Part shown: positions 53,538 through 55,153 of the stretch, piece after piece | How positions within the stretch are numbered: the stretch's first letter is position 1 | Layout: every line of letters starts with the position of its first letter | Assembly (NCBI GenBank): GCA_018238625.1 | Contig: JABCSY010000007.1 | Location: forward strand, 1 to 64,000 | Direction: 5' to 3' | Origin: Promethearchaeota archaeon | GTDB taxonomy: Archaea > Asgardarchaeota > Lokiarchaeia > Sigyniarchaeales > SOKP01 | DNA length: 64,000 bases | Made by a program: the position numbers and the translations under genes | The notes under the pieces: model-generated | The model's input: the letters and a program-made list of their open reading frames with translations, nothing else | Told to the model about the DNA's origin: nothing | The model's database searches: none

Positions 53538-53744
53538 TTAATTATCCCGGAAAATTCTTGACTTTTCTTCATCTCGTTCCTCTTTGCAGTGAGGACAAAT
53601 CCACGTCTTATCGTTCTTTTTTACCGAATTTAAGCAAACATCGCAAACAGTGATATCGCATATGCAATAATGGCATTTATCTAATATATCTTTACAATCC
53701 TTCCCGCATATGTAACAATTAGGAGGGCTTTTGGTTTTGGACAT
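53538..53744 (-). CDS. Small cysteine-rich zinc-finger protein
   Basis: 68 aa; CYICGKDC, CHYCIC, CDVC, CPHC pairs. Confidence 0.6.
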   Translation of the reverse strand: MSKTKSPPNCYICGKDCKDILDKCHYCICDITVCDVCLNSVKKNDKTWICPHCKEERDEEKSRIFRDN

Positions 53745-53844: not shown

Positions 53845-54030
53845 ATGGACAAACTAAAATCGCGAGTTCAATTGCTTTCGCTTTTTATAATTTTTTTTAT
53901 ATATAAGGCTATAGCGGGTATTGTTGGTAATAATTTCTCTGAATCCGTTCTATGGTTTATGTTTTCTATTGTTTATGCTATATCTCTTACGATCTTATAT
54001 TTTACTTATAAAAAAAGGCAAATTTCATAG
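53845..54030 (+). CDS. Small two-TM membrane protein
   Basis: 61 aa, two hydrophobic segments. Confidence 0.4.
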   Translation: MDKLKSRVQLLSLFIIFFIYKAIAGIVGNNFSESVLWFMFSIVYAISLTILYFTYKKRQIS

Positions 54031-54089: not shown

Positions 54090-54374
54090 TCATTTCTTAG
54101 TCTTTTTTTTAAAAATATCCGGAATTAAACCCTCAATTCCAAAACGGTCCATAATAGTATCACTAATATCGACTTTAACTTTCATATCTTGCATAGCTTT
54201 TAACGATTCTCCTAACATTTTGGTGAAGCTCTCGCTCATTTCTTTAACAGCATTGGAAGTCAATTGAAGGGATTCCCGAATAGCAAGATTTGTCTCGTGT
54301 AATTCTAAAGTCATTTTTTCCATGCTTTTCCTCATTTCTGACATCTCATCTTTTAATCCCATTATCAATACCAA
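54090..54374 (-). CDS. Small coiled-coil/helical protein
   Basis: 94 aa; heptad-like MSEMRKSMEKMTLELHETNLAIRESL. Confidence 0.45.
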   Translation of the reverse strand: MVLIMGLKDEMSEMRKSMEKMTLELHETNLAIRESLQLTSNAVKEMSESFTKMLGESLKAMQDMKVKVDISDTIMDRFGIEGLIPDIFKKKTKK

Positions 54375-54539: not shown

Positions 54540-54677
54540 ATGTCTGAATGGAAATACAAAGTTAAAAAACCCGTAGCCGAAGAGGCCTTTTGTACTGGCT
54601 GAGGCATCGTTGACGGAATAATTTCGTGTATAAGTAATCTAAAAAAACAACGCAAAGAAAAGAAAAACCAAAAATAA
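54540..54677 (+). CDS. Candidate mini-selenoprotein 1 (one in-frame UGA at 54600-54602)
   Basis: MSEWKYKVKKPVAEEAFCTG[U]GIVDGIISCISNLKKQRKEKKNQK*, 45 codons, CxxU-type motif; hairpin element immediately 3'. Missed by the ORF track because TGA was read as stop. Confidence 0.6.
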
Positions 54678-54681
54678 ACTA

Positions 54682-54744
54682 AATCTCGAGGAGTAAAGCA
54701 AAAACGATAGGTTTTATTCCTTAGTTCCGCAAGAACTTGAGATT
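54682..54744 (+). promoter_or_regulatory. Candidate SECIS-like element 1
   Basis: AATCTCGAG/CTTGAGATT closing stem, GGAGTAAA/TTTATTCC stem presenting AAACGATAGG, AGTTC-CGCAA-GAACT hairpin; same core as 55041-55105. Confidence 0.5.
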
Positions 54745-54898
54745 AACTCTTACATTTTTACTTAACATTACTCTTTTTATTATTATAAAAAATTACTTAA
54801 TTGCGTGTTAACTTTATTTTTTATAAACCTAACCCTTAATACTCCTGATTTTTATAAATTTAATAATATATTTAATGATTTAAAAGTGAGAAAAACTT

Positions 54899-55048
54899 AT
54901 GTCGGAAGAAGACGAATTTGATTTTGGATTTGATGACAATTGCTATCAAACTAGTTGATCGTTACTTACTATGTGGTACTTAAGAGCTTTAAAAACGCAA
55001 AAAGCTAAAGAAAAAATGGATAAAAACATGAATAATAAAGATCTCTAA
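54899..55048 (+). CDS. Candidate mini-selenoprotein 2 (one in-frame UGA at 54956-54958)
   Basis: MSEEDEFDFGFDDNCYQTS[U]SLLTMWYLRALKTQKAKEKMDKNMNNKDL*, 49 codons; hairpin element overlapping the stop codon. Confidence 0.6.
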
Positions 55049-55105
55049 GATTAAGTCGTTAAACGATAGGATTTAATCGATAAGTTCTATGCAAGGACTT
55101 GAGAT
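55041..55105 (+). promoter_or_regulatory. Candidate SECIS-like element 2
   Basis: ATCTC-AAG/CTTGAGAT closing stem, GATTAA/TTAATC stem presenting AAACGATAGG, AAGTTC-TATGCAA-GGACTT hairpin. Confidence 0.5.
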
Positions 55106-55153
55106 ACAATTTCTTATTACTTTTTTTTTTTGAAAAACAAAAAGAGAAAAACA

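Follow-up and report, generated by a model that had tools for sequence, protein, structure and literature searches.

The window (the whole stretch of DNA that was analysed, 64,000 nt) contains two very short reading frames, ORF1 and ORF2, each having an in-frame TGA and each followed by a structured RNA. The features are as follows.

54540..54677, + strand: ORF1, predicted mini-selenoprotein of 45 aa, MSEWKYKVKKPVAEEAFCTGUGIVDGIISCISNLKKQRKEKKNQK, stop TAA (from translation, homologues and selection test).
54600..54602, + strand: in-frame TGA, predicted to be read as Sec21 of ORF1; no other codon at this site in Lokiarchaeota homologues.
54681..54745, + strand: SECIS-like three-way-junction RNA of ORF1, covariance model score 72.6 bits. 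P1 54683-54687/54739-54743; P2 54690-54699/54711-54720; apical loop AAAAACGATAG 54700-54710; P3 54724-54727/54733-54736 with loop CGCAA.
54899..55048, + strand: ORF2, second predicted mini-selenoprotein, 49 aa, MSEEDEFDFGFDDNCYQTSUSLLTMWYLRALKTQKAKEKMDKNMNNKDL, stop TAA; same layout as ORF1.
54956..54958, + strand: in-frame TGA, predicted to be read as Sec20 of ORF2; TGT instead in G070/L247.
55039..55107, + strand: SECIS-like three-way-junction RNA of ORF2, covariance model score 71.9 bits. P1 55041-55045/55101-55105; P2 55049-55057/55070-55078; apical loop GTTAAACGATAG 55058-55069; P3 55082-55087/55095-55100.

The translation of 54540-54677 has a single in-frame TGA. The UGA-to-element distances in the window are 78 and 80 nt, respectively, for a published archaeal range of 70-1500 nt (PMC9499178), and the first stem of the ORF2 element overlaps the end of ORF2 (final codons and stop). 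The position of the locus is conserved across genera, beside housekeeping genes, and the genes downstream of the mini-ORFs are convergent. Small zinc-ribbon-like, membrane and coiled-coil proteins (53538-53744, - strand; 53845-54030, + strand; 54090-54374, - strand) adjoin the mini-ORFs in several genera; since the whole block is syntenic, these neighbours give no functional link by themselves.

We searched for homologues of ORF1 using a query with Cys in place of Sec. Homologues were found in 46 of the 83 genomes of the class, in one family only, with TGA at the same site in all of them (47 genomes were listed, and G025 was left out as a borderline noise match). Homologues with exactly one TGA, at this site, are present in the majority of genomes of the host's own genus and in several further genera, and the observation lies well outside what chance would give. 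We also scanned GTDB genomes with a pattern that permitted TGA, TGC, TGT or TGG at the Sec site, and every Lokiarchaeota match had TGA there. The invariance of TGA is free of ascertainment bias, as the queries were Cys-substituted and the scan accepted any TGN codon. All genomes compared are metagenome-assembled. The original prediction proposed looking for Cys homologues of ORF1 (FCTGCG); none was found among the 83 genomes of the class searched, and a Cys form exists for the neighbouring ORF2 only. The bacterial matches of the GTDB scan were discarded as chance, being without ORF1 family sequence. At one locus (L028, G022:C112), ORF1 has an apparent one-base deletion ahead of the Sec site while the RNA element is intact; the gene may be decaying, or the assembly may be in error here.

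Within the family, 27 genomes carry ORF2, and ORF1 accompanies it in 26 of these (Fisher P = 4e-5). ORF1, ORF2 and the element are all absent from G006, G005, G016 and G021, which belong to the same genus and have SelD and FlpD with TGA; one of these genomes is 100% complete. The existence of such Sec-using relatives indicates that the pair is dispensable. Neither plasmids nor viral contigs gave a match.

In order to assess selection past the UGA, we compared 11 independent sister pairs of ORF1, chosen to avoid branch reuse and frame artefacts. Past the UGA, the changes counted in frame 0 were 51.5 synonymous and 78.5 non-synonymous, with P between 3e-7 at kappa 1 and 4e-4 at kappa 4. In frames 1 and 2, omega is close to 1 or higher, which looks like neutral change. 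Between closely related copies, dN/dS past the UGA is approximately 0.3 (ORF1) and 0.25 (ORF2); the sister-pair test of ORF2 is weaker, having five pairs only (P 0.009 to 0.13). As estimated from these comparisons, the selection on ORF1 past the UGA is purifying and frame-specific. The absence of such selection had been named in the original prediction as the observation that would overturn it, and the test on ORF1 came out the other way.

The second half of the discovery, the RNA element, was no part of that prediction. Both elements of the window fold better than nearly all of their shuffles and have two sequence blocks in common, and Rfam has no match in the window. A genome-wide search with the short loop motif, allowing one mismatch, returned extra matches at chance level only; covariance modelling was therefore needed. 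The model, built from 29 elements, identified 35 places in 58 genomes, all of them behind mini-ORFs where readable. In two genomes (G036 and G028) it matched without an ORF1 BLAST match, and a diverged mini-ORF with KFTCTGU lies upstream of the RNA; here the RNA predicted the gene. Across 58 distinct copies, 94% of cells are paired and 124 double-sided changes are seen vs 34 ± 6 in shuffles, in an alignment that was fitted to the covariance model and hence leans towards it. This signal was lost when partners were slid, and in an unfitted MAFFT alignment 13 of 18 pairs show compensatory change.

The closing stem P1 of the mini element is nearly always UCUC/GAGA, and the joins are short, J1/2 being 2-3 nt and usually AA, GA or AAA, and J2/3 often containing A. 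P2 has 9-10 bp and carries an apical loop of 11-12 nt with a near-invariant AAAnnnUAG (AAA...U(A)G in 58/58 copies), and P3 is a small hairpin with a (Y)GCAA-type loop. The AUGA/GA kink-turn quartet has long been regarded as the core of SECIS. It occurs, as such or as GA_AA, in 0 of the 58 distinct copies, and neither UGA 5' of P2 nor 5' GA combined with 3' [G/A]A was found in any of them. The elements have the 3' UTR position and distance of Asgard eSECIS-like elements, with an upper stem within 7-15 bp, an apical loop within 8-20 nt and unpaired A's. They resemble the published Asgard set (PMC11227280) in the 3' position, the upper stem of about 10 bp and the A-rich apical loop, but differ from it in the absent AUGA/GA quartet, the near-invariant AAAnnnUAG loop, the UCUC/GAGA P1 and the short joins. 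Methanogen eaSECIS, defined by a GAA_A internal loop, is likewise a 3' UTR RNA recoding UGA in an archaeon, but the mini-element consensus is without the asymmetric GAA/A loop (PMC11881835).

We then compared the mini elements to the SECIS elements of SelD and FlpD from the same lineage. The SelD 3' regions (L095, L096, L166-L189) combine a closing stem with two hairpins, one bearing the UGA/GA quartet and an A-rich loop, the other adjoining the closing stem. A direct test found this P3 hairpin in 18 of 19 SelD elements vs a mean of 1.3 in shuffles, including a compensatory exchange from CCGUU/AACGG to CCACC/GGUGG. The RNAalifold consensus of the SelD elements missed P3 because an extension of P1 competes with it. 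All three parts recur in the FlpD elements (L093, L197-L219), where 11-nt loops (e.g. AAAAAATTTAG), a J1/2 of 6-12 nt and P3 loops mostly containing GC or GCA were seen among the loci parsed; the parser required the canonical pattern and did not parse some loci. These comparisons indicate that the canonical Lokiarchaeal SECIS elements are themselves predicted three-way junctions, having a third hairpin with a GC/GCAA-type loop. In its text, the published account of Asgard SECIS (Huang 2024, PMC11227280), which covers quartet-based and GAA_A models only, mentions no third hairpin, and the Loki SECIS of Mariotti 2016 is summarised in a review (PMC9499178) as having one apical loop. The mini elements have in common with SelD and FlpD SECIS the P1-P2-P3 junction, the A-rich apical loop and the GC-containing P3 loop. 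The mini-element covariance model does not recognise SelD or FlpD SECIS, even with filters off, and the kinship therefore rests on architecture and not on model score.

Two arrangements of ORF2 serve as natural experiments. The ORF2 homologue of G070 reads CYYTSCSLINMWH, with TGT (Cys) where TGA stood, and its 3' region has no RNA element, while the adjoining ORF1 keeps both its TGA and its element. This is the one case of a Cys homologue at the ORF2 Sec site. In G064, the two ORFs are joined in a bicistron and a single RNA element lies behind ORF2, 247 nt away from the first UGA and 81 nt away from the other. Both arrangements are what a SECIS role would predict, and an unrelated 3' structure does not predict them.

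Further variants of the locus were seen. L012 (G012:C161) is without ORF2 and its lone element is joined to sequence normally 3' of the ORF2 element, as if recombination between two SECIS copies had deleted ORF2. At L084 (JAHPZE010000029.1), TGA seems to be the final stop of both mini-ORFs, near or within the RNA element of each, in which case one UGA of an mRNA would be Sec and another a stop. L260 (G076:C1:190236-191402) has two more tandem ORF2 copies with elements, away from the usual locus, and an extra element (L260:1274-1342) upstream of them for which no ORF was identified.

The host is a Lokiarchaeon, and the GTDB pattern matches name the carriers as Candidatus Lokiarchaeota. SepSecS is present in 54 of 58 genomes, including the genome of the window, which also has two SelD genes, with a TGA in frame, and two FlpD genes, each with two such codons. 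SepSecS together with UGA-containing SelD and FlpD identifies the host as a selenocysteine user.

As regards the proteins, the original prediction interpreted CTGUG as a CxxU redox motif chemically equivalent to that of thioredoxin. Part of this stands: Cys18, Gly20, Sec21 and Asp25 (U+4) are invariant in a 29-row alignment, and in the AlphaFold2 model of ORF1 residues 20-44 form one confident helix that begins at Sec, with pLDDT mostly about 90. The ORF2 model is similar, with lower confidence. The spacing, however, is C-x2-U in 29 of 32 ORF1 homologues and C-x4-U in the other 3, as in all ORF2 proteins, and the further Cys (IISC) to which the prediction had also drawn attention is present in 15/32 homologues and is not conserved. 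Given the C-x4-U spacing and the unconserved third Cys, the thioredoxin equivalence is not established; at 45 aa, with helices only and no Pfam or PDB match, ORF1 has no thioredoxin-like fold, for which it is too small. ORF1 is like the Rdx/SELENOW-type and thioredoxin-type CxxU proteins in its CxxU and in Sec at the N-terminus of a helix, but is essentially one helix and its spacing may be C-x4-U. A Sec at a helix start beside a Cys would be a sensible selenol/thiol site, and a redox role is plausible judging from the invariant residues and the model. ORF1 has an amphipathic helix and a basic tail, and ORF2 a strongly acidic head. A comparison of the two by hhalign (probability 26%, E 7e-4) is only suggestive of homology; adjacency, co-occurrence and complementary charge make a partnership possible.

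Neither protein matched Pfam (up to E = 1) or NCBIfam (up to E = 10, including selenobacteriocin TIGR04081), and the PDB profile search gave noise only. There was no hydrogenase family match either, and the order is C-x2-U, not the VhuU-type C-terminal UxxC. The known Asgard selenoproteins (SelD, FrhA/VhuU, HdrA, FrhD/FlpD, Prx-like, AhpF N-domain, DsbA-like) likewise combine a Sec UGA with a 3' element, and FlpD and HdrA have a CxxU as in ORF1, but they have no sequence family in common with ORF1 and ORF2 (44-59 aa). The two are absent from the seven families of the Asgard selenoproteome paper (Huang 2024, PMC11227280), and the accessible part of a 2026 review describes no family of their kind.

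The conserved UGA, the constraint past it and the covarying RNA bear out the reading of CTGUG across the UGA as part of a selenoprotein. We regard it as very likely that ORF1 and ORF2 encode two very small selenoproteins of Lokiarchaeia, each with a quartet-less SECIS variant downstream, and the comparative evidence makes a strong case for selenoproteins of two new mini families. The ribosome would reach the internal UGA, with the RNA immediately downstream of each ORF acting as SECIS; the Sec-specific elongation factor would deliver Sec-tRNA and translation would go on to the real stop. In the products, of about 45 aa, a C-terminal helix would begin at the Sec of Cys-Thr-Gly-Sec (ORF1) or of Cys-Tyr-x-Thr-Ser-Sec (ORF2). 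They may perform redox (selenol/thiol) chemistry, possibly with the basic ORF1 and the acidic-headed ORF2 as partners.

Were the UGA a true stop, ORF1 would give a 20-aa peptide and the RNA would be a terminator, riboswitch or stability element with no recoding role. In this genome UGA does serve as a normal stop (it ends 6 of the 38 window ORFs of at least 200 aa), and the element is without the canonical quartet, both of which would fit. This reading is nonetheless largely refuted by the in-frame, codon-level constraint past the UGA and by the Cys-coding ORF2 of G070, which has lost its RNA; moreover, TAA or TAG was never seen at the Sec site of ORF1, an in-frame ATG after it is present in 5/32 homologues and is not conserved, and the downstream genes are convergent, which leaves a 3' riboswitch without an obvious target. 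We consider it highly improbable. We give similarly little credence to the insertion at the UGA of a residue other than Sec, be it Trp or, through a near-cognate tRNA, Cys: Sec is not visible from DNA, but the host carries SepSecS as well as SelD and FlpD genes with UGA, with whose SECIS the element has its architecture in common, and Cys (ORF2 of G070) is the sole sense substitution found at the site, Trp never occurring. It is very unlikely, if slightly less so, that the two are other ribosomal peptides, selenobacteriocin-like or toxin-like, instead of cytosolic redox proteins. They are very small, Sec-containing and patchy within the family, as such peptides might be; against this stand the lack of Pfam and NCBIfam matches at the above thresholds, the lack of a leader or obvious modification genes nearby, and a locus conserved across genera beside housekeeping genes.

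The nature of the element is less settled. It may be a regular Asgard eSECIS-like hairpin in which unusual junction pairs (e.g. A-A) make up the kink-turn quartet, in keeping with a J1/2 that is usually AA, GA or AAA and a J2/3 that often has an A; a kinked GA_AA geometry is known and has been cited for Asgard SECIS (PMC11227280). The quartet counts of zero in 58 given above argue against this, as does a J1/2 of 2-3 nt vs 6-12 nt in FlpD SECIS, and we tend to doubt it while regarding it as a real possibility. We lean slightly towards a second SECIS class in Lokiarchaeia, in which a three-way junction would be recognised via the AAA...UAG apical loop and the GCAA hairpin with no quartet, and which would be dedicated to partner selenoproteins of about 45 aa, possibly a heterodimeric minimal selenol redox unit.

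Two selenoprotein families would thus be added for the archaea closest to eukaryotes. Homology-based surveys would miss them because such surveys query with known families. No SBP2 is known from archaea. The features that persist without the quartet are the A-rich apical loop and the third hairpin, and a natural SECIS without the AUGA/GA quartet would make directly testable the old question of what the archaeal Sec machinery recognises.
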